The notes under the pieces are model-generated. The model worked only from the letters and a program-made list of their open reading frames with translations. It searched no databases and was not told the DNA's origin. Made by a program: the position numbers and the translations under genes. A stretch of 20,178 bases of DNA from the NCBI GenBank assembly GCA_900543485.1, contig UQRM01000037.1, positions 1-20,178 on the forward strand, written 5' to 3'. Positions 4,370 to 14,054 of the stretch are shown here, piece after piece. Position 1 is the stretch's first letter. Each line of letters opens with the position of its first letter. This stretch comes from an uncultured Eubacterium sp. (lineage in GTDB: Bacteria > Bacillota > Clostridia > Peptostreptococcales > Anaerovoracaceae).

Positions 4370-4425
4370 GCGTGTGAAAACGTTGATATTTACACAAAAA
4401 ACAGCGGTCTTTGACCTAAAACAGC

Positions 4426-4454
4426 TTGACAAACAACTTGAAAGATGGGAAAAT
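4426..4454 (+). promoter_or_regulatory. Sigma-A-type promoter of the HU gene
   Basis: A perfect -35 TTGACA (4426-4431) is followed after 17 bases by GAAAAT (4449-4454), which matches four of six -10 positions. Transcription would begin near 4461, giving a leader of about 90 bases before the HU start codon. A second TTGAC-like box (4411-4416) lies 15 bases upstream but has no partner -10. Confidence 0.6.
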
Positions 4455-4500
4455 AGTGCATAGGCAAAGTGCAATGGTAGTGATGCCGGGTGTCAAATGG

Positions 4501-4517
4501 GTATTTGGCGCAAATAC
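4501..4517 (+). other. Hairpin in the HU mRNA leader
   Basis: GTATTTG and CAAATAC form a perfect 7-bp stem with the loop GCG. The hairpin ends 17 bases before the Shine-Dalgarno AAGGAGG at 4535-4541. The T-rich stretch after it is interrupted and too far away for a simple terminator. It may stabilise the mRNA or modulate translation; its function is unknown. Confidence 0.4.
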
Positions 4518-4549
4518 ATGAGGTTATTATTTTTAAGGAGGATTTATTG

Positions 4550-4828
4550 ATGAATAAAGCGGAATTAGTAGCTGCAGTTGCAGAAAAGACTGGATTTACA
4601 AAGAAAGACGCCGAATTGGCTGTTAATGCTTTCGTTTCAAGCGTAGAAAACTCTCTGGTAAAGGGCGAGAAGGTACAGCTCATAGGATTCGGAACCTTCG
4701 AGGTTCGTCAGAGAAAAGCAAGACAGGGAAGAAATCCTAGAAAACCGGGAGAAGTCATCAAGATCGCTGCTTCAAAAGCTCCTGTATTCAAGGCTGGCAA
4801 GGCTCTGAAGGATGCTGTGAACAAATAA
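4550..4828 (+). CDS. hup: HU family DNA-binding protein
   Basis: HU is a small basic nucleoid protein that bends DNA as a dimer. The 92-residue product shows the whole family pattern: helical N-terminus [20 protein letters not shown], the [13 protein letters not shown] strand region at about residues 46-58, the DNA-grasping arm with the RNPRKPGE turn containing the intercalating proline, and the closing helix [22 protein letters not shown] lies eight bases before the ATG, which is the only sensible start. It has its own promoter (4426-4454) and terminator (4858-4888), so it is probably transcribed mainly as a single gene at high level. Codon use is less ATA-rich than in neighbours, consistent with high expression. 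HU next to RqcP is a common Clostridia arrangement. Confidence 0.97.
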
Positions 4829-4857
4829 GCGGCGGACAACGATAAAGAATGGAAAAC

Positions 4858-4888
4858 AAAGGGTAACTCGTTTACCCTTTTCTTTTTT
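4858..4888 (+). terminator. Rho-independent terminator of the HU gene
   Basis: AAAGGGTAA (4858-4866) pairs perfectly with TTACCCTTT (4872-4880) around a five-base loop, and TCTTTTTT follows directly. It lies 29 bases after the HU stop and 35 bases before the rqcP start, so rqcP must rely on readthrough or an unseen promoter. Confidence 0.85.
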
Positions 4889-4923
4889 AGCGGAGGACGA
4901 TGAAGAGCGGGAGAGGAGGATAT

Positions 4924-5166
4924 ATGAGGATAGATAAATTCCTGAAGAACTCCCGGATAATCAAGCGGCGTACCGTCGCCAAGGAAGCGTGCGAACAAGG
5001 CAGGATAACGGTGAACGGGAAGATCGCCAAACCGGGGAATGAGGTGGACACGGGCGACGAGATATATATAAGCTTCGGGAACGGGAGCCTTCGGGTCAGG
5101 GTATTGGAATTGAAGGATCCGTGCCGGAAGGAAGACGCGGCGTCCATGTATGAAGTTATAGAATAA
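4924..5166 (+). CDS. rqcP: RqcP (YabO), S4-domain ribosome quality-control protein
   Basis: RqcP binds stalled 50S subunits with RqcH and tRNA and assists the addition of C-terminal alanine tails to nascent chains. The 80-residue product is a single S4 RNA-binding domain: MRIDKFLKNSRIIKRRTVAKEA at the N-terminus, then QGRITVNGKIAKPGNEVDTGDEI, and a C-terminal tail LELKDPCRKEDAASMYEVIE that matches Bacillus YabO closely. AGGAGG at 4914-4919 supports ATG 4924; an ATG at 4900 would add eight residues with no family match. It follows HU, as in many Clostridia, but the usual downstream yabP, yabQ and divIC are absent and a thioesterase gene comes next. An Hsp15-type heat-shock name is sometimes given to such proteins, but the short length fits RqcP. 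Confidence 0.9.
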   Translation: MRIDKFLKNSRIIKRRTVAKEACEQGRITVNGKIAKPGNEVDTGDEIYISFGNGSLRVRVLELKDPCRKEDAASMYEVIE

Positions 5167-5239
5167 GCAGGGCCTCTTTGTCAGAGTCATCGATGACATC
5201 CGGCAGGAGGCTCTTATCATGTAGGAAACAGAGGTATTT

Positions 5240-5686
5240 ATGGTGAAGAAGACGAGAAAAGAGATAGAGGCGCGAATGAGCGCTATTTCAGAGGAAATAG
5301 AAAACAACCCTAAGGAAAACATGAATACGCTGCTGGCACCGGAGCTGTATGGCTTCGATGAGGAGCGTATGACAGCGGAGATCGGATTCAGACGGTATGG
5401 ATGGGAAACCAATGAAAGAGGAGAGATACATGGCGGGGCCATATCGGCCATGTTCGATACGGCCATGGGGATGACAGTGCTGGCTTTTTCCGATTCGGAA
5501 AACATCTCTACGGCGGATCTGAGTGTCAGCTTCATAAGGCCGTTTCTGGGAGAATCATATCTGTTCAAAACAGAGATAGTCCATCCGGGGAGAACGATAG
5601 TAAGGGTGAGAGCTATTGCCTACGACGAAAAAAGCGGCAAACCGCTGGCTTCGGCTACCGCTAATTTTTTCCGTTTGGACAGGTGA
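5240..5686 (+). CDS. PaaI-family hotdog-fold thioesterase
   Basis: The product is a hotdog-fold acyl-CoA thioesterase of 148 residues. The signature GEIHGGAISAMFDTAMG is clear, with HGG at residues 64-66 and the likely catalytic Asp at 73, as in PaaI and YdiI-type enzymes. The second half carries the expected strand patterns STADLSVSFIRPF and GRTIVRVRAIAYDEKSGKPLASATANFF. The first 35 or so residues form a charged helix (KKTRKEIEARMSAISEEIE) before the domain. GAGG five bases before the ATG is a modest ribosome binding site. The gene lies 73 bases after rqcP and converges with the lipoprotein gene, whose stop is only nine bases away. The natural acyl-CoA substrate is unknown; PaaI relatives act on aryl- or hydroxylated acyl-CoAs. 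Confidence 0.85.
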   Translation: MVKKTRKEIEARMSAISEEIENNPKENMNTLLAPELYGFDEERMTAEIGFRRYGWETNERGEIHGGAISAMFDTAMGMTVLAFSDSENISTADLSVSFIRPFLGESYLFKTEIVHPGRTIVRVRAIAYDEKSGKPLASATANFFRLDR

Positions 5687-5695
5687 GGGACATCA

Positions 5696-7081
5696 TCATG
5701 GATTCAGGCTGTCGATGAAATTCAGTATATTGGTCAGCGCCGCATCCATGTGGTTGATATTGCACTGATATGAGATGATATTCAGGTCATCGGCTTTTGA
5801 TGAAAAGATACCGCATTCGCTGCTCTTCACGGTGGAGTCGATGATGGATTCCTCGGAGCCGAGGGCATCGGTGAGGAATGGTCCGGCGCCGTTTTTACTG
5901 TCAGAGCTCCATGTCATGAATGGATCTGTCGCTGAATAGGATATGTTGCACAGTCCCGATGTGGTGAGAAATTCCTGTGACATCTCATCCATGACGCTGC
6001 TGTCTGTGCTCCTGGATACCATGGTGAGGGTGAAAGCTCCGCCCGATGTAGTGACAGATGATATACCTGCGGCGGCAATGATGTCGCCGCTATTTTCATC
6101 CTGACGATATATGCCTGTCTGGAGGGTGTACATCAGGCTTATGATGTTATCGCTGCTCTGACTGCTCATCACTGTTTCCGGCATAGTCGTTTCCGTAAGA
6201 GTATATACGAAATTGTCGTTGAGGTTCTCGAACCTGTCCTTCATGTTGTTGTAGGATGAATTGAACCTTCTGGTAAAACTGTCTACATCGTTGCTGTCCA
6301 CGATGACCACAGCAGTTGCGGAGGTAGGCGTGTATCCATCGGCAGATTCACACTCGAATGAAGCCAGGTTGAAAAGCTGACCGGAGCTTTTTTCCGTAGC
6401 AAGAAGACTCCCTATGGTCTCGACAGGGTTCGGATAGCGCTGGTCGAAATCGAAAGGGTCGTGATAGCCGGATATGGACATGGTTATGGCAAAGGCATGA
6501 GAATATGCCGGCTCGGCCGTTTCCACAGGAGTAGTCATAGTGCTGGTCATCTCGTAGGCTCCGGAGGTCACCAGGCTCACATCGTTGTTGAAATCCAGGT
6601 TTATGAAATTGTCGCACTGATAGTATTTTGAATCGACGGAAGATGCTCCGATAAGCTGACCGTCGTCTATCTCGGTTATTATCAGTGTGATGTCGCCGTG
6701 CTCCTCAGGCCCCAAAAGCGATGTAAGGGCTATGGCGAGGGGCTGCATGGAATTGTTGAAATCGTTGGTCCTGACAGGGCACTGGAGGACTGTGGACTGG
6801 CTGCTTTCACAGCCGGCCGTGGCAGGGTTGGTCAGTACCATGTAGTGATCCTGATTTTCCGCAACGTCCATTTCGTTCTTATTGGCCCATGATTTGAGGT
6901 ACTCCGTAACCAGGGAGAATTGTCCCGATTCGCCGGAAAATGTGGAACTAAGCTCATCGTATGTAGTCTCGGCGGCGGCGTTCAGCTCGCTGTCCCTTGA
7001 CATTTCTTCCAGAGAGCAGCTGCTCAAAACCATGGTGAATATCAGTATAAGTGGTGTTATCAGTAGCAAATATCTCTTCAT
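5696..7081 (-). CDS. Lipoprotein related to M20 dipeptidase PepD, metal site apparently lost
   Basis: The N-terminus is a lipoprotein signal: MKRYLLL, a hydrophobic core, then lipobox LSSC with Cys22. The protein would be anchored on the outer face of the membrane. The rest, about 440 residues, follows the PepD (Xaa-His dipeptidase, M20) pattern end to end: SLVTEYLKSWANKNEMDV, NPATAGCESSQSTVLQ (compare KPATPGYENAPTVILQ), a central dimerisation-like part, and SSECGIFSSKADDLNIISY (compare GLECGIFSEKLPGLDMISF). The metal ligands are mostly changed. The HxD of LQGHLD reads P102-x-R104, the bridging Asp aligns with Asn110, and the Glu pair of DEE reads D139-D140; D163 in NLD is kept. I infer a non-catalytic, perhaps ligand-binding, protein. 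It has seven Cys besides Cys22. AAGGAGA lies nine bases before the ATG. It is divergent from the GNAT gene. Family relation is inferred by eye. Confidence 0.75.
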   Translation of the reverse strand: MKRYLLLITPLILIFTMVLSSCSLEEMSRDSELNAAAETTYDELSSTFSGESGQFSLVTEYLKSWANKNEMDVAENQDHYMVLTNPATAGCESSQSTVLQCPVRTNDFNNSMQPLAIALTSLLGPEEHGDITLIITEIDDGQLIGASSVDSKYYQCDNFINLDFNNDVSLVTSGAYEMTSTMTTPVETAEPAYSHAFAITMSISGYHDPFDFDQRYPNPVETIGSLLATEKSSGQLFNLASFECESADGYTPTSATAVVIVDSNDVDSFTRRFNSSYNNMKDRFENLNDNFVYTLTETTMPETVMSSQSSDNIISLMYTLQTGIYRQDENSGDIIAAAGISSVTTSGGAFTLTMVSRSTDSSVMDEMSQEFLTTSGLCNISYSATDPFMTWSSDSKNGAGPFLTDALGSEESIIDSTVKSSECGIFSSKADDLNIISYQCNINHMDAALTNILNFIDSLNP

Positions 7082-7095
7082 GCCGATATTTCTCC

Positions 7096-7124
7096 TTGTC
7101 TGTTATTATCATTTTTTATATAAT
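7096..7124 (+). promoter_or_regulatory. Promoter of the GNAT gene in a shared divergent region
   Basis: TTGTCT (7096-7101) and TATAAT (7119-7124) are 17 bases apart, placing the start of transcription near 7131. The -35 overlaps the Shine-Dalgarno of the divergent lipoprotein gene (7091-7097 on the plus strand). The minus-strand promoter must lie in the AT-rich stretch 7105-7160; I see several TATTAT/TATAAA-like boxes there but no convincing -35. Confidence 0.55.
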
Positions 7125-7203
7125 AATATAATAACACATGCGGAAAATAAATTGTAGAGATTGTATGAATCTTTATCGAAACGGGAATTATTAAGGAGAA
7201 GAT

Positions 7204-7737
7204 ATGGAGACTCAGAGATTTCTCATAAGGGAGCCGGAGTTCGGCGATTACGAATATTTCGTCAGATGGGAAAATGACCCGATGGTCACGAAGTATCTCA
7301 CATATGATGAGGAGAGAAGCTACGAAGAAGTGGTGACTGAAGCCATATACAATAAATTCAGCAAGGACAGGATGGATTTCACTATCGTCGAGCGGGAAAC
7401 GTACAGACCGGTAGGAAGGGTGTTTGTTTCCAGGGTCGACACTCAGAGCGACAGCCTGGACATCACCAAGTTTTATATAGGTGAGACGGAGCTGTGGGGA
7501 CAGGGGATCGCCAGGGAGATAATCAATGAGCTGCTGGAATATTTCTTCACGTTCCTCCATATGGAGAGGGTGACTATAGACCACTATGTGGGAAACAAGA
7601 GGGCCCATACGCTGTACGAGAGCATCGGCTTCAGACAGGAGGGGACAGGTCGTCATGCCACTAAGAAAAATGGCCAGTATTACGATCTGGTATTCATGTC
7701 CATACTCCGTTCGGAGTTTTTCGGAGAGAAGGACTGA
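7204..7737 (+). CDS. GNAT family N-acetyltransferase (RimJ/RimL-like)
   Basis: This 177-residue protein is a GCN5-related acetyltransferase that would transfer an acetyl group from acetyl-CoA to an amine. The acetyl-CoA pyrophosphate-binding loop reads LWGQGIAREI, around residues 97-106. The end of the fold is typical: RVTIDHYVGNKRAHTLYESIGFRQEGTGRHATKKNGQYYDLVFMSIL. The N-terminus (TQRFLIREPEFGDYEYFVRWENDP) matches RimJ/RimL and spermidine-type acetyltransferases. AAGGAG at 7193-7198 lies five bases before the ATG. It has its own promoter and is followed by a terminator-like hairpin, so it is probably monocistronic. The substrate is unknown: small molecule, ribosomal protein or antibiotic are all open. 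Confidence 0.88.
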   Translation: METQRFLIREPEFGDYEYFVRWENDPMVTKYLTYDEERSYEEVVTEAIYNKFSKDRMDFTIVERETYRPVGRVFVSRVDTQSDSLDITKFYIGETELWGQGIAREIINELLEYFFTFLHMERVTIDHYVGNKRAHTLYESIGFRQEGTGRHATKKNGQYYDLVFMSILRSEFFGEKD

Positions 7738-7977: not shown

Positions 7978-7996
7978 TCAGTTAGAGGTGAAGAGT

Positions 7997-10354
7997 ATGG
8001 AACAGATAAAACAGATAATAAAGCGTGACGGAAGAACGGTGGACTTCGATATCGATAAGATAGCGGACGCCATATATAAGGCGGCTCAGGTCCTGGGGGG
8101 AAAGGATTACGATATGGCCAGATACCTGGCCAGACAGGTAGAGGTGTATCTGCTGGAGATCTGCCACAACGAGATACCTACTGTAGAGCAGATACAGGAC
8201 GCGGTGGAGAAGGTACTTATAGAGAACGGACATGCGAGGACAGCCAAGGAGTATATCCTCTACAGGGCGGAGAGGACCAGAGTGAGAGATATGAACACCA
8301 GGCTCATGAAGATATATGAGGACCTGACGTTCAAGGAAGCAAAGGACAACGATACCAAGCGTGAAAACGCCAATATAGATGGCGATACGGCCATGGGGAC
8401 CATGCTCAAGTACGGTTCAGAGGGCGCGAAGCAGTTCTATGAGATGTTCGTGCTGAAACCGGAGCATGCCAAAGCTCACAGAGAGGGAGACATCCATATC
8501 CACGACATGGATTTCCTCACTCTGACTACCACATGTTGTCAGATAGATATAGAAAAGCTTTTCAAAGGCGGATTTTCTACCGGACACGGATTTCTCAGGG
8601 AGCCTAATGACATCCAGAGCTACGCGGCTCTGGCGTGTATAGCGATACAGTCCAATCAGAACGACCAGCACGGTGGTCAGAGCATACCTGATTTTGATTA
8701 TGGCATGGCCAACGGTGTCAAGAAGACGTACAGGAAGCTGTACTGGACAAATCTGGGGAAAATGCTCAACCTGCTTTTTGATATAGATGATGGTGTGGAA
8801 AAGACCAAGGATATCGGCGCCAGGATAATGGAGGAGCGCGATATTTATCCTATACTTGCTGACGACAACGGGTATAAGGACATAGAGCGAGAGTATCTGA
8901 AAGAGATAATAGATGAAAAGTTCATTGACAAGCTCCAGAAGAAGGCGACCAAGTATGCCAATGAAGAGGTGAGGAGAGCCACATATCAGGCCATGGAGGC
9001 ATTTGTCCACAACCTCAACACTATGCATTCCAGAGCCGGAGCGCAGATACCATTCTCGTCCATCAACTACGGTACCGATACGTCTCCTGAAGGAAGGATG
9101 ATAATCGAGAACATACTGCTGGCCACGGAGGCCGGTCTGGGGAACGGCGAGACTGCCATTTTCCCGATACATATATTCAAAATAAAGGATGGGATCAACT
9201 ACAACCCGGGCGAACCCAACTATGATATGTTCAAGCTGGCGTGCCGGGTCTCGGCCAAGAGGCTCTTCCCTAACTTTTCCTTCATAGACGCTCCGTTCAA
9301 TCTCCAGTATTATCATGAGGGTGATCCTAACACGGAGGTGGCATACATGGGATGCAGGACGAGAGTGATAGGTAACGTATATGATCCCAGCAGACAGGTA
9401 GTGGGAGGCAGAGGAAACCTCAGCTTCACGTCAGTCAATCTGCCGAGGATAGCCATCAAGGCTCATGGAGATGTGGACTGGTTTTTCGAGGAGCTGGAGA
9501 GGAAGGTGGATCTCTGCATAGACCAGCTGATGGAGCGATACAAGATACAGGCGTCCAAGAAGGTGAAGAACTATCCGTTCCTGATGGGCCAGGGGATATG
9601 GCTGGATTCTGATAAACTGAAGCCGGAGGATTCGGTGGCGGAGGTGCTGAAACACGGTACGCTGACTGTAGGATTCATAGGCCTGGCGGAGTGTCTCAAA
9701 GCATTGATAGGTGTTCATCACGGCGAAAGTCCGGAGGCTCAGGCGCTGGGGCTGGAGATAGTAGGTTTCATGAGACAGAAGATGGATGAACAGTCCAGGA
9801 AAACGGGTTTCAATTACACGTTGATAGCGACGCCGGCGGAAGGGCTTTCCGGAAGATTCGTCAGGATAGACAGAGAGAAATACGGAGTGATAGAAGGTGT
9901 CACTGACAGAGAATACTATACGAACTCTTTCCATATCCCTGTATATTTCAATATCAACGCCTTTGACAAGATAAAGCTGGAGGCTCCGTATCACGCGCTC
10001 ACCAACGCAGGCCATATAACGTACGTCGAGCTGGACGGCGATCCGTGCAAGAACCTGGACGCCTTCGAGCAGGTAGTAAGGTGTATGAAGGAGAGCGGAG
10101 TGGGCTACGGATCGATCAACCATCCTGTGGACAGAGACCCTGTCTGCGGTTACACGGGAATAATCGACAACGAGTGTCCGCATTGCCACAGGACTGAAGA
10201 TGACGGAGACCAGGGCTTTGAGAGGATAAGGCGTATCACCGGATATCTGGTAGGGACCATGGACAAGTGGAACGACGCCAAGACGGCGGAGGAAAAGGAC
10301 AGGGTAAAACACAGCGTCGAAAATCTCAGCACTGAAATGGAGACACTGCAATGA
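7997..10354 (+). CDS. nrdD: Anaerobic (class III) ribonucleoside-triphosphate reductase, catalytic subunit
   Basis: NrdD reduces ribonucleoside triphosphates to dNTPs under anaerobic conditions with a glycyl radical. The 785-residue protein opens with an ATP-cone allosteric domain (IKRDGRTVDFDIDKIADAIYKA, about residues 7-100). The catalytic barrel follows, containing YMGCRTRVIGN with the active-site cysteine. A C-terminal zinc region has C717, C727 and C730 (VCGYTG...NECPHC). The radical glycine is G749 in RRITGYLVG. GAGGTGA at 7985-7991 supports ATG 7997 rather than the GTG at 7988. The stop overlaps the nrdG start in ATGA, so the two are translationally coupled. A sigma-A promoter and a candidate NrdR box lie upstream. 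The arrangement fits an obligate or facultative anaerobe. Confidence 0.97.
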   Translation: MEQIKQIIKRDGRTVDFDIDKIADAIYKAAQVLGGKDYDMARYLARQVEVYLLEICHNEIPTVEQIQDAVEKVLIENGHARTAKEYILYRAERTRVRDMNTRLMKIYEDLTFKEAKDNDTKRENANIDGDTAMGTMLKYGSEGAKQFYEMFVLKPEHAKAHREGDIHIHDMDFLTLTTTCCQIDIEKLFKGGFSTGHGFLREPNDIQSYAALACIAIQSNQNDQHGGQSIPDFDYGMANGVKKTYRKLYWTNLGKMLNLLFDIDDGVEKTKDIGARIMEERDIYPILADDNGYKDIEREYLKEIIDEKFIDKLQKKATKYANEEVRRATYQAMEAFVHNLNTMHSRAGAQIPFSSINYGTDTSPEGRMIIENILLATEAGLGNGETAIFPIHIFKIKDGINYNPGEPNYDMFKLACRVSAKRLFPNFSFIDAPFNLQYYHEGDPNTEVAYMGCRTRVIGNVYDPSRQVVGGRGNLSFTSVNLPRIAIKAHGDVDWFFEELERKVDLCIDQLMERYKIQASKKVKNYPFLMGQGIWLDSDKLKPEDSVAEVLKHGTLTVGFIGLAECLKALIGVHHGESPEAQALGLEIVGFMRQKMDEQSRKTGFNYTLIATPAEGLSGRFVRIDREKYGVIEGVTDREYYTNSFHIPVYFNINAFDKIKLEAPYHALTNAGHITYVELDGDPCKNLDAFEQVVRCMKESGVGYGSINHPVDRDPVCGYTGIIDNECPHCHRTEDDGDQGFERIRRITGYLVGTMDKWNDAKTAEEKDRVKHSVENLSTEMETLQ

Positions 10355-10884
10355 GTGGCGGAGAGATCCTGAGACTGGCAGGGATCGTGAGAGAGTCTAT
10401 CGTGGATGGCCCGGGGATACGGTTCACTGTATTCTGTCAGGGCTGTCCCCACGGTTGTCCGGGATGTCACAATCCTGAGACTCACGATTTTAAGGGAGGC
10501 TCTGACTGTTCCGTAGACAGATTGATGGAGGAAATAGACAAGGATCCCATTCTGGCCGGAGTGACCTTTTCCGGCGGCGAACCCTTTTGCCAGGCAGAAG
10601 CCTTCGAGAACATGGGAAGGAAAGTGAAGGACAGAGGTCTTTCACTGACTGTGTTCAGCGGATTTACTTATGAAGAGCTGATGAAGATGGCCGAGAAGGA
10701 TATCCATGTCAAAGGGCTGCTGGAGCTGACGGATCTGCTGATAGACGGTCCTTTCGAGGAAAGTCTGCGCGATCTTACGCTTCAGTTCAGAGGAAGTTCC
10801 AATCAGCGGCTCATCGATATGAACCGTACCAGGGAGTCGGGCGATATCGTCATATGGGAACAGGACACAGGTGTCAGACATTGA
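10351..10884 (+). CDS. nrdG: Anaerobic ribonucleotide reductase activating protein
   Basis: NrdG is a radical SAM enzyme that installs the glycyl radical on NrdD. The iron-sulfur CX3CX2C motif is C32-PHG-C36-PG-C39, preceded by the family's GIVRESIVDGPGIRFTVFCQG. The SAM-binding VTFSGGEPF comes at about residues 68-76. At 177 residues it has a normal length. It overlaps the nrdD stop by four bases. No clear hairpin terminator follows; the next feature is the L28 promoter about 50 bases downstream, so some readthrough into rpmB is possible. Confidence 0.95.
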   Translation: MSGGEILRLAGIVRESIVDGPGIRFTVFCQGCPHGCPGCHNPETHDFKGGSDCSVDRLMEEIDKDPILAGVTFSGGEPFCQAEAFENMGRKVKDRGLSLTVFSGFTYEELMKMAEKDIHVKGLLELTDLLIDGPFEESLRDLTLQFRGSSNQRLIDMNRTRESGDIVIWEQDTGVRH

Positions 10885-11530: not shown

Positions 11531-11547
11531 GCTTCATGTTATGAAGC
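11531..11547. promoter_or_regulatory. Perfect palindrome between divergent genes
   Basis: GCTTCAT and ATGAAGC are exact inverted copies around GTT. The site lies just upstream of the minus-strand membrane-protein gene and 65 bases before the asp23 start, so it could be an operator or a leader hairpin. No regulator is assigned. Confidence 0.3.
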
Positions 11548-11612
11548 CGCTGTTCACATTGTGCATGTATTATTCGCGTCATTGTGATAAAATAACGACA
11601 GAGGAGGCTGTT

Positions 11613-12014
11613 ATGTTGAACATGGAGACAAAGCTGGGAGATATACGGTTTTCTCCCGGTATAATAGGCGTACTCGTCGCTGATTCTATCGAGCCTTTCA
11701 GCGGCAAAGCCGAGCTGCTGAACTACAGAGGCAGGTACCAGAGCGTCGCTTCGGGGCTGGCGTCGAGGATGAATCTCTGTGATGAAGACGCCGGCAGCGT
11801 GCGGGTGGAAGACACGGATGAGGGTGTGGATATCACGGTGTATATCACCGTCCGTTTTGGCGTCAGCATCAAAAAAATCACGGAGGGGATAATAGATAAT
11901 ATATATGAGAATGTGGAGAAAACCATGGGCCGGAAACCGGCCAAAGTGACGGTGATAGTCACAGGGACGGTGGCCAGGAATATCGTGAAGAGACATATAG
12001 AGGTGAGCAGATAG
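11613..12014 (+). CDS. Asp23/Gls24 family envelope stress protein (YloU-like)
   Basis: This is a cytoplasmic Asp23/Gls24-domain protein of 133 residues. The core VDITVYITVRFGVSIKKITEGIIDNIYENVEKTMGRKPAKVTVIVTG, about residues 73-119, is the family's signature. The N-terminal half is divergent, although the order (RFSPGIIGVLVADSIEPFSG...) fits the usual sequence of secondary structures. GAGGAGG lies five bases before ATG 11613, which fixes the start. I see no convincing promoter; a TGTGATAAAAT stretch near 11583-11593 could be part of one. Its stop codon is immediately followed by the recG ATG with no intervening base, so the two are coupled. In most Firmicutes YloU is followed by the fatty acid kinase FakA/YloV; that gene is missing here. 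Confidence 0.85.
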   Translation: MLNMETKLGDIRFSPGIIGVLVADSIEPFSGKAELLNYRGRYQSVASGLASRMNLCDEDAGSVRVEDTDEGVDITVYITVRFGVSIKKITEGIIDNIYENVEKTMGRKPAKVTVIVTGTVARNIVKRHIEVSR

Positions 12015-14054
12015 ATGGAGCTGAAGGATAAGGTGACTCAGCTGAAGGGAGTGGGTCCAAAGAAGGCGCAGGCTTTGGAAAAACTCAATATAAGGACATT
12101 GGAGGACATGGTGTTCTTCCTTCCGAGAGATTACGAAGACAGGAGGAACAGGCTCAGGATAGGGCAGCTGGCGGAAGATATGACCGGAGCCGTGGAAGCT
12201 CGTGTTACCATGATAGTCCCAGACGGATACAGGCGTGGCGGGAAGCAGCTGCTGCGGCTTCTGGTGAGCGACGATACAGGCTCCATGGAAGTGATATTTT
12301 TCAATGCCAGATATCTGAAAAACGTCTTCAAGCAAGGAGAATCATATCTCTTCTTCGGTAAAGTCTCGAGAAACTTCGGGAAGCTGCAGATGGTGCATCC
12401 GGAATTCGAGAAGGCTTCGGAAGCCGGAAGCGGTATCCTCGCAGTGTATCCTCTGACCAAAGGTATAAGCCAGCGGGAAATGAGAAACTGGCAGGAGGCT
12501 GTCAGGCCTCTGTATGAGAAAGCCGAAGATTTCCTCAGCGATGAGCTGAAGTCGGCCAACAGGCTGTGCAGTCTGCGGTACGCGCTGAAAAACGTCCATT
12601 TTCCTGAAGAGAAGCAGTCGCTGCTGGAAGCCAAGTACAGGCTTATATTCGACGAGCTCCTGGTATTGCAGACGGGAATGATGGCCGCGCGTGCCGCCGC
12701 TAAGGAGGGAAAGGATGGCATAGCTTTTTCCCGTGACGCGGACATATCTGAATACATAGATTCGCTGCCTTATAGTCTTACAGAGGCTCAGAGCCGGTGT
12801 GTCAGAGAAATAGAAGAGGATCTGGAAAGTGAAAAGGCCATGAACAGGCTGGTGCAGGGAGATGTGGGCTCCGGGAAGACGGCGGTAGCCGAGATTGCGT
12901 TGTATAAGGCTGTGAAAAGCGGATGGCAGGCGGTGCTTATGGCACCCACAGAGATATTGGCAAGACAGCATTTCGACGGGATAGGAAGCGCCTTCCGGGC
13001 GCATGGTATAAGAGTTGGGTTCCTGTCAAGCTCCGTCGGAGCTGCCGAAAAGAGGGAGACTCTGGAGAAGATAAAGACAGGGCAAGTCCAGGTGGTCATC
13101 GGCACTCACGCGGTGATACAGCCGGAGGTGGAGTTTGCGGCGCTGGGGCTGGTCATAACAGACGAGCAGCACAGGTTTGGGGTCAGACAGAGGGTAAAGC
13201 TCAGGGAAAAGGGCAGGAATCCCAACGTGCTGGTGATGACAGCGACGCCTATCCCAAGGACTCTGTCGGTAGTCCTTTACGGAGATATGGACGTGTCGGT
13301 GATAGACCAGCTCCCTCCTGGAAGACAGCCGGTGAGGACCAGGAGCATCGGGCAGGAGAAAAGGGATCTGTGTTACGATTTCGTGAAAAAACAGCTGGAG
13401 ATGGGGCGGCAGGCTTATGTGGTGACACCTCTAATAGAGGGATCCGAGTCTGTGGATGCCAGATCGGCGCTCCAGGTATCGGAGGAGCTGCGGAAGCGTT
13501 TCTCAGGATATCGTGTGTCGCTCATACATGGAGCAATGAAACAGGCGGAAAAGGATGAGATAATGGATGCGTTCCACCGTGGAAGCATCGATGTGCTGGT
13601 GGCCACAGTAGTCATAGAAGTGGGGATAAATGTCCCGAACGCCACCGTGATGGTAGTGGAGAACGCCGAGAGATTCGGCCTGGCTCAGCTCCATCAGCTT
13701 CGTGGCCGTGTAGGCAGAGGCAGGGAAAAGTCATACTGCTTCCTCATATTCGAGGGTCAGTCGGAAATCGCAAAAAAACGCGGTGAGATAATGGAATGCT
13801 CGTCGGATGGATTTTTCATCGCTGAAGAAGATCTGAAGCTGCGGGGGCCGGGCGAGATATTCGGTACCAGACAGCACGGACTCCCGGATCTGAACATAGC
13901 GGATCTTTCAAGGCATTTGAAAATAATGAATCATGCCAGAGGTGAAGCGAAGGTCATACTGGAAAAGGATCCGAAGCTGGAATCGGCGGAGAACAGCGGT
14001 CTGAAGCGGCGAATAACCAGGCTTTTCGGAGAGGATCTGAATCTTGATCTTTAG
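12015..14054 (+). CDS. recG: ATP-dependent DNA helicase RecG
   Basis: RecG reverses stalled replication forks and migrates Holliday junctions. The 679-residue protein has the usual layout. An N-terminal wedge/OB region begins with QLKGVGPKKAQALEKLNI and continues FFLPRDYEDRR. Walker A is GDVGSGKT at residues 282-289, and the DEQH box is at 383-386. It continues with TATPIPRTLSVVLYGDMDVSVIDQLPPGR, the motif VI-like QLHQLRGRVGRG, and the C-terminal GPGEIFGTRQHGLPDL. Length is normal. AGGTGA nine bases upstream serves as ribosome binding site, within the end of the asp23 gene. It is co-transcribed with that gene. No frameshift or missing motif is seen. Confidence 0.97.
   Translation: MELKDKVTQLKGVGPKKAQALEKLNIRTLEDMVFFLPRDYEDRRNRLRIGQLAEDMTGAVEARVTMIVPDGYRRGGKQLLRLLVSDDTGSMEVIFFNARYLKNVFKQGESYLFFGKVSRNFGKLQMVHPEFEKASEAGSGILAVYPLTKGISQREMRNWQEAVRPLYEKAEDFLSDELKSANRLCSLRYALKNVHFPEEKQSLLEAKYRLIFDELLVLQTGMMAARAAAKEGKDGIAFSRDADISEYIDSLPYSLTEAQSRCVREIEEDLESEKAMNRLVQGDVGSGKTAVAEIALYKAVKSGWQAVLMAPTEILARQHFDGIGSAFRAHGIRVGFLSSSVGAAEKRETLEKIKTGQVQVVIGTHAVIQPEVEFAALGLVITDEQHRFGVRQRVKLREKGRNPNVLVMTATPIPRTLSVVLYGDMDVSVIDQLPPGRQPVRTRSIGQEKRDLCYDFVKKQLEMGRQAYVVTPLIEGSESVDARSALQVSEELRKRFSGYRVSLIHGAMKQAEKDEIMDAFHRGSIDVLVATVVIEVGINVPNATVMVVENAERFGLAQLHQLRGRVGRGREKSYCFLIFEGQSEIAKKRGEIMECSSDGFFIAEEDLKLRGPGEIFGTRQHGLPDLNIADLSRHLKIMNHARGEAKVILEKDPKLESAENSGLKRRITRLFGEDLNLDL

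Follow-up and report, generated by a model that had tools for sequence, protein, structure and literature searches.

A PepD-like lipoprotein from an uncultured Eubacterium sp. as a probable membrane-anchored pseudopeptidase

Introduction

Pseudoenzymes are a known kind of protein, and a putative one is the subject of this study: the product of a gene located within a stretch of 20,178 nucleotides (contig UQRM01000037.1; hereafter, the window) from an uncultured Eubacterium sp. of the family Anaerovoracaceae. Its closest described relative is PepD, the cytoplasmic aminoacyl-histidine dipeptidase of family M20C. In PepD from Vibrio alginolyticus, His80, Asp119, Glu150, Asp173 and His461 are the zinc ligands, Asp82 and Glu149 are catalytic, and the lid domain mediates dimerisation; replacement of Arg369, which presumably binds the carboxylate of the substrate, by Ala abolishes carnosine hydrolysis (PMC6271292).

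Peptidase domains that no longer cut have been described in other families. DipM, an inactive LytM endopeptidase homologue of the cell envelope, offers a precedent for a catalytically dead envelope peptidase domain working by binding other enzymes (PMC10336132), although it belongs to another peptidase family, LytM. Similarly, a review of inactive metallopeptidase homologues presents pseudopeptidases involved in protein-protein interaction; PepD and 'MH clan' were not found in it, and the passages found for M20, lipoprotein and 'bacteri' all belong to the reference list (PMC11266112). The first-pass annotation of the window had proposed that the combination of a PepD pattern, lost metal ligands and a lipobox corresponds to no described family, and indeed no such family, nor any exported M20C pseudopeptidase, was found in the open-licence literature. 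We consider it somewhat probable that the protein belongs to a clade of PepD-derived, membrane-anchored pseudopeptidases that has not been described before.

Results

The gene is an open reading frame (ORF) of 461 residues running on the minus strand from position 7081 to 5696, and its product has the N-terminus MKRYLLLITPLILIFTMVLSSC. This protein matches the PepD model TIGR01893 of NCBIfam (E 2.3e-31, 109.1 bits) without reaching its curated cut-off of 343.75, and a comparison of its sequence with solved structures returned two matches only, both Xaa-His dipeptidases (3mru, 3.7e-10; 2qyv, 3.6e-9). A catalytic and a lid domain follow one another in the PepD order, the two-domain fold extends over residues ~30-461, and residues such as H128, G145, N218, G323, R357, W391 and E422 are common to both proteins. 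The earlier proposal of a PepD-type protein along its whole length is thus borne out. No Pfam family matched the window protein at E up to 1, and none of the 56 family members tested matched the M20 models of Pfam at E ≤ 0.01, whereas the early-branching member L094 matched Peptidase_M20 (E 4.8e-8). The link to PepD rests on TIGR01893, the solved-structure matches, the structure comparison and the database relatives; one profile search reached no canonical PepD. Apart from two PepD models, the only NCBIfam family listed was BamJ (residues 1-84; E 0.0042, far below the cut-off), a match judged to be a signal-peptide effect and discarded.

The active site was compared in an alignment combining 101 proteins from the loci with 103 full-length relatives from the database, the latter remaining after eight fragments shorter than 440 amino acids (aa) had been dropped from 111 proteins; loci were labelled canonical or non-canonical from their active-site columns. 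In the window protein, the zinc ligand columns are occupied by P102 (His80), N110 (Asp119), D140 (Glu150), D163 (Asp173) and a gap (His461), and the catalytic columns by R104 (Asp82; a gap in the larger alignment) and D139 (Glu149). Hence, unlike PepD, the protein lacks the zinc ligand set and the catalytic Glu, and Asp82 is likewise absent. These positions coincide with those of the first-pass annotation, in which the HxD motif had become P102-x-R104, the bridging Asp had become Asn110 and the Glu pair D139-D140. Its broader claim of a lost metal site holds for four of the five ligand positions, which are changed or gapped, and falls short at Asp163, which retains the residue of the Asp173 position.

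The zinc site has been lost throughout the close family. None of the five ligands is kept in 74 of the 103 relatives, one in 22 and two in 7; among the 81 non-canonical locus proteins the corresponding counts are 51 and 23, with two ligands kept in 6 and three in 1, and a complete ligand set at shifted positions was sought among these 81 and not found. The full metal and catalytic set of seven residues is present in 20/20 canonical sequences and again in 20/20 further ones, that is, in 40 of the 121 locus proteins. The spacing between the His80 and Asp119 sites is 8 residues in 103/103 relatives versus 39-45 in 20 canonical PepDs, indicating that the loop following HxD has been deleted. Among close relatives the His80 column contains S, A, T, Q, M, P, G, H, N, F or D, and the Asp119 column contains N in 47/103 and S, K, D and others elsewhere. 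Aspartate occurs in 34/103 relatives in the Glu149 column, in 32/103 in the Glu150 column (with E in a further 13/103) and in 11/103 in the Asp173 column, while 103/103 show a gap at the His461 position. Two residues after the His80 site, Asp is found in 50/103 relatives; this position, which is not a metal ligand, is partly kept.

A second difference from cytoplasmic PepD lies at the N-terminus. Residues 1-22 comprise a basic n-region, a hydrophobic core and a lipobox ending in Cys22, in agreement with the clear lipobox noted in the first pass, and Cys22 is invariant across 56 aligned homologues. A lipobox rule of our own was satisfied by 102/103 full-length relatives (the exception, P0049, begins late in its signal peptide), by 26/28 members of a distant set (P0115-P0142) and by 65/81 non-canonical loci, to which L021, with a lipobox behind an over-long start, can be added. 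In the remaining 15/81 we read an N-terminal hydrophobic segment resembling a transmembrane anchor or signal; in L088, L089, L091, L095, L097, L098, L100, L107 and L110-L114 a transmembrane-like segment apparently replaces the lipobox.

When a hydrophobic segment was defined as a mean Kyte-Doolittle value of at least 1.6 over 15 residues, within the first 70 residues (120-150 where the ORF start was clearly too far upstream), it was detected in 81/81 non-canonical loci versus 0/20 canonical ones, and the highest value among the further 20 canonical PepDs was 1.31. The absence of a signal peptide expected of a cytoplasmic enzyme therefore characterises all 40 canonical PepDs and not the window protein, and export and site loss coincide without exception in the 121 locus proteins examined. 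Because the search profile contains signal-peptide columns that favour exported members, canonical PepDs had been included in this comparison on purpose, 20 among the fetched loci and 20 picked mostly for long open frames; not every hit was fetched.

A 105-row tree, from which six near-duplicate rows were omitted and which drew on 10 of the 103 protein rows, separated 84/85 exported rows from the rest by a branch with a Shimodaira-Hasegawa-like approximate likelihood ratio (SH-aLRT) support of 99. Some early-branching members retain the long loop and part of the site residues, namely L094 (N-x-D, GADSG), L093 (GHIN) and L039 (R-x-D, GADSA), and their TIGR01893 scores are 334.9 bits, just under the cut-off, 270.3 and 136.1, respectively. 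Judged from their sequences, these three look like survivors of a path from enzyme to pseudoenzyme. The tree, the N-termini and the active-site columns, read jointly, support the earlier suggestion that a cytoplasmic zinc dipeptidase was turned into an exported protein predicted to be non-catalytic.

The lipoprotein gene shows the marks of a maintained gene. Nei-Gojobori ratios of nonsynonymous to synonymous divergence (dN/dS) were calculated for 14 pairs, 11 of lipoproteins (two saturated) and three of canonical PepDs (one saturated). The four lipoprotein pairs with dS < 1 gave 0.079, 0.088, 0.090 and 0.203, which indicates purifying selection; five pairs with dS 1.77 to 2.90 gave 0.043-0.102, and for canonical PepDs the two pairs that were not saturated (dS > 1) gave 0.118 and 0.148. 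Mean column conservation among close relatives was 0.686 in the lid versus 0.616 and 0.542 in the two catalytic parts, whereas in 20 canonical PepDs it was 0.499 versus 0.631 and 0.591, a comparison in which only the between-domain ratio is meaningful, since divergence is greater among the canonical sequences than among the close lipoproteins. In relative terms, constraint has shifted to the lid.

In a set of 100 genomes made up of that of L001 and its relatives, 45 contain strong full-length members of the family (E up to 1.1e-160). In a 198-genome sample of a wider order, the best 30 matches (L005, L073-L101; some repeat genes fetched earlier) were all ligand-poor and exported. A canonical PepD scoring over the cut-off is also encoded in 17 of 34 lipoprotein-bearing genomes (G001-G037 minus G010, G011 and G013; a partial match just under the cut-off in G026 was left out of the 17), and the others may lack PepD or be incomplete; the lipoprotein is therefore no replacement for the enzyme. 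Close database relatives are labelled at best Bacillota, Firmicutes or Clostridiales bacterium. Within the distant set, P0127 and P0132 belong to Clostridiales Family XIII bacterium PM5-7 and Emergencia sp., both Anaerovoracaceae, and P0131 to Anaerotruncus sp. 80. Most protein-database rows of the family carry no protein name, and some carry that of an enzyme: 'dipeptidase D' (P0127), 'aminoacyl-histidine dipeptidase' (P0081, identical to L012) and 'di/tripeptidase' (among P0127, P0081 and P0067). All five zinc ligands are missing from P0127 and P0081, and P0067 belongs to the 103 relatives, all of which keep two at most; metabolic reconstructions would tally ligand-less proteins such as P0127 and P0081 as peptidases.

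Discussion

Computation supports a whole PepD fold, an export signal with a lipobox, loss of the zinc site and its loop in the close family, and purifying selection. The window protein is thus very probably an exported, non-catalytic protein of the PepD fold, and its maintenance under selection after loss of the metal site probably reflects a different, non-cutting job. The best overall explanation, to which we assign a probability of roughly 0.6, is a PepD-derived, membrane-anchored pseudopeptidase that acts by binding and not by catalysis. The PepD-like protein would be lipidated at Cys22 and face outward, would be unable to bind two zinc ions or to hydrolyse peptides, may pair through the lid domain, now its most constrained part, and, by analogy with DipM, might work by binding an envelope protein or a peptide. 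A main role as a binding, scaffold or regulatory protein working through the lid is about as likely as not. More speculatively, a lineage of Clostridia may have made PepD into a receptor or regulator fixed to the outer face of the membrane, which uses the former lid pocket to read peptides and leaves them uncut; under that rather unlikely scenario, the early-branching L093, L094, L039, L040, L117 and L119 might still display steps of the conversion.

Several points weigh against the pseudopeptidase interpretation. The Asp found two residues after the His80 site in 50/103 relatives and that of the Asp173 column in 11/103 mean that some members hold a lone ligand or acidic residue, which leaves some room for a different, weaker metal site. 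Inactivity, lipidation, surface location and dimerisation are predictions drawn from sequence, the divergence of the canonical PepDs limits the lid comparison as stated above, and neither gene retention nor constraint identifies a binding partner. In addition, the neighbours that we annotated, a part of the total, are common metabolic or information genes that give no functional hint; the genomic place therefore says little about function.

Among the alternatives, the one raised by the first-pass annotation is a peptide-binding or sensing lipoprotein, whose old cleft would bind di/tripeptides or cell-wall peptides outside the cell in the manner of a substrate-binding protein. The conservation of R357 (the counterpart of PepD Arg369) in the lid of 100/103 close relatives, the agreement of W391 and E422 with 20/20 canonical PepDs and the His in the lid His219 column of 41/103 speak for such a role. 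However, Gly occupies the column of Asn260, which partners Arg369, in 88/103, and no transporter or sensor gene was found among the neighbours that we annotated, many in other genomes having been left unannotated. Moreover, the Arg369 column holds N, Y, C or V in 28/28 members of the distant set, so that a peptide-binding role would not span the family. From the Gly at Asn260 and the Arg missing in the distant set, we favour a protein-binding or regulatory role over peptide binding, which appears doubtful. An enzyme still active through an altered metal centre or a metal-free mechanism could draw on the acidic residues common at the Glu149 and Glu150 columns, but it is very improbable given that no metal-ligand column is conserved in close relatives, that the ligand-bearing loop is deleted and that the His461 column is gapped throughout. 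Loss of the catalytic site would also fit a pseudogene in decay or an ORF open by chance; the low dN/dS of the four unsaturated lipoprotein pairs strongly disfavours this idea, and the strong matches in 45 of the 100 related genomes, the lipobox in all but one of the 103 relatives and the presence of at least one anchor gene (see below) in 44/48 neighbourhoods make it scarcely credible.

A further alternative, compatible with the pseudopeptidase interpretation, replaces one ancestral event by several separate inactivations and exports of PepD. It is prompted by L127 (G265), which has a lipobox and lost ligands and yet groups with the canonical L123, L125 and L126, and by the absence of the anchor genes from the stretches read around L093, L094, L127 and L117 (L130-L133; L133 is a short contig of 7.2 kb). 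Nevertheless, the branch of L127 is long (1.69) and its placement is a starred branch of a quick tree, the other 84 exported rows fall together, and in a 46-row tree a single clade of all exported rows was not rejected by the approximately unbiased (AU) test (p-AU 0.274). Since this test does not require a second origin, L127 was dropped as proof of one, and we regard repeated origins as unlikely. L123, L125 and L126 are long canonical PepDs (530-545 aa) that form a subgroup, and L127 beside them might represent a second, independent conversion.

The pseudopeptidase interpretation is of interest since it describes a coupled change, from a cytoplasmic enzyme to an exported, anchored and ligand-less protein, that can be traced over many genomes, with a clean two-state split in the 121 proteins examined plus partly degraded intermediates. 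Furthermore, the family constitutes a conserved, predicted surface protein of little-studied anaerobes that is open to functional work.

Genomic context

The features of the locus are collected in Table 1. The GNAT gene, nrdD, nrdG, yloU and recG lie upstream of, and divergent from, the lipoprotein gene, and at least one of the anchors GNAT, NrdD, YloU and RecG was found in 22/22 close-relative and 22/26 more distant neighbourhoods. Individually, the divergent GNAT gene adjoins the target in 22/22 close and 12/26 distant neighbourhoods, NrdD is present in 21/22 and 7/26, and RecG in 20/22 and 19/26; in L146 and L147 the anchor genes are located on the opposite side, on the same strand. Computation supports that the gene has mostly remained in the vicinity of one locus, and the persistence of the anchors favours vertical inheritance near one ancestral place.

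Table 1. Coordinates of the PepD-like lipoprotein gene, its parts and its neighbours in the window; domain limits were drawn by us from the alignment
Feature	Position	Strand	Basis or remark
PepD-like lipoprotein gene, 461 aa	5696..7081	-	start codon 7081, stop codon ends 5696; ORF, TIGR01893, structure, 104 homologues
Signal peptide and lipobox, residues 1-22, Cys22 predicted lipidation site	7016..7081	-	C22 invariant; lipobox rule
N-terminal part of former catalytic domain, residues 29-185	6527..6997	-	P102 (H80), R104 (D82), N110 (D119), D139/D140 (E149/E150), D163 (D173); HxD loop deleted
Lid/dimerisation domain, residues 186-387	5921..6526	-	best conserved part of close family; holds R357 (= PepD Arg369)
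C-terminal part of former catalytic domain, residues 388-461	5699..5920	-	W391, E422 kept; His461 position lost
Divergent intergenic region, 122 bases, lipoprotein gene/GNAT gene	7082..7203	.	one promoter-like match per strand, consensus scan only
GNAT acetyltransferase gene, divergent conserved neighbour	7204..7737	+	Acetyltransf_3 E 4.1e-18
nrdD and nrdG, frequent neighbours	7988..10884	+	
yloU (Asp23 family) and recG, anchors reaching most distant relatives	11541..14054	+	

Two minus-strand ORFs considered as operon partners, at 7078-7656 and 4708-5568, were rejected, since they run opposite the GNAT, HU, S4 and thioesterase genes in antisense orientation and match no family above the cut-off; a third, at 4390-4683, overlaps HU in antisense. 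No RNA element in the window reached the gathering threshold. The gene fakA/yloV often sits between yloU and recG. In the window, recG directly follows yloU (11541-14054) with no fakA/yloV gene between them, and the 679-aa neighbour, for which a FakA identity had been entertained, proved to be RecG in a family scan. The downstream side varies by subclade, with a thioesterase gene in 6/22 close neighbourhoods and an EPSP synthase gene in 12/29 neighbourhoods of another set. On the opposite side, the region between positions 7082 and 7203 that the lipoprotein and GNAT genes share might mean shared regulation.
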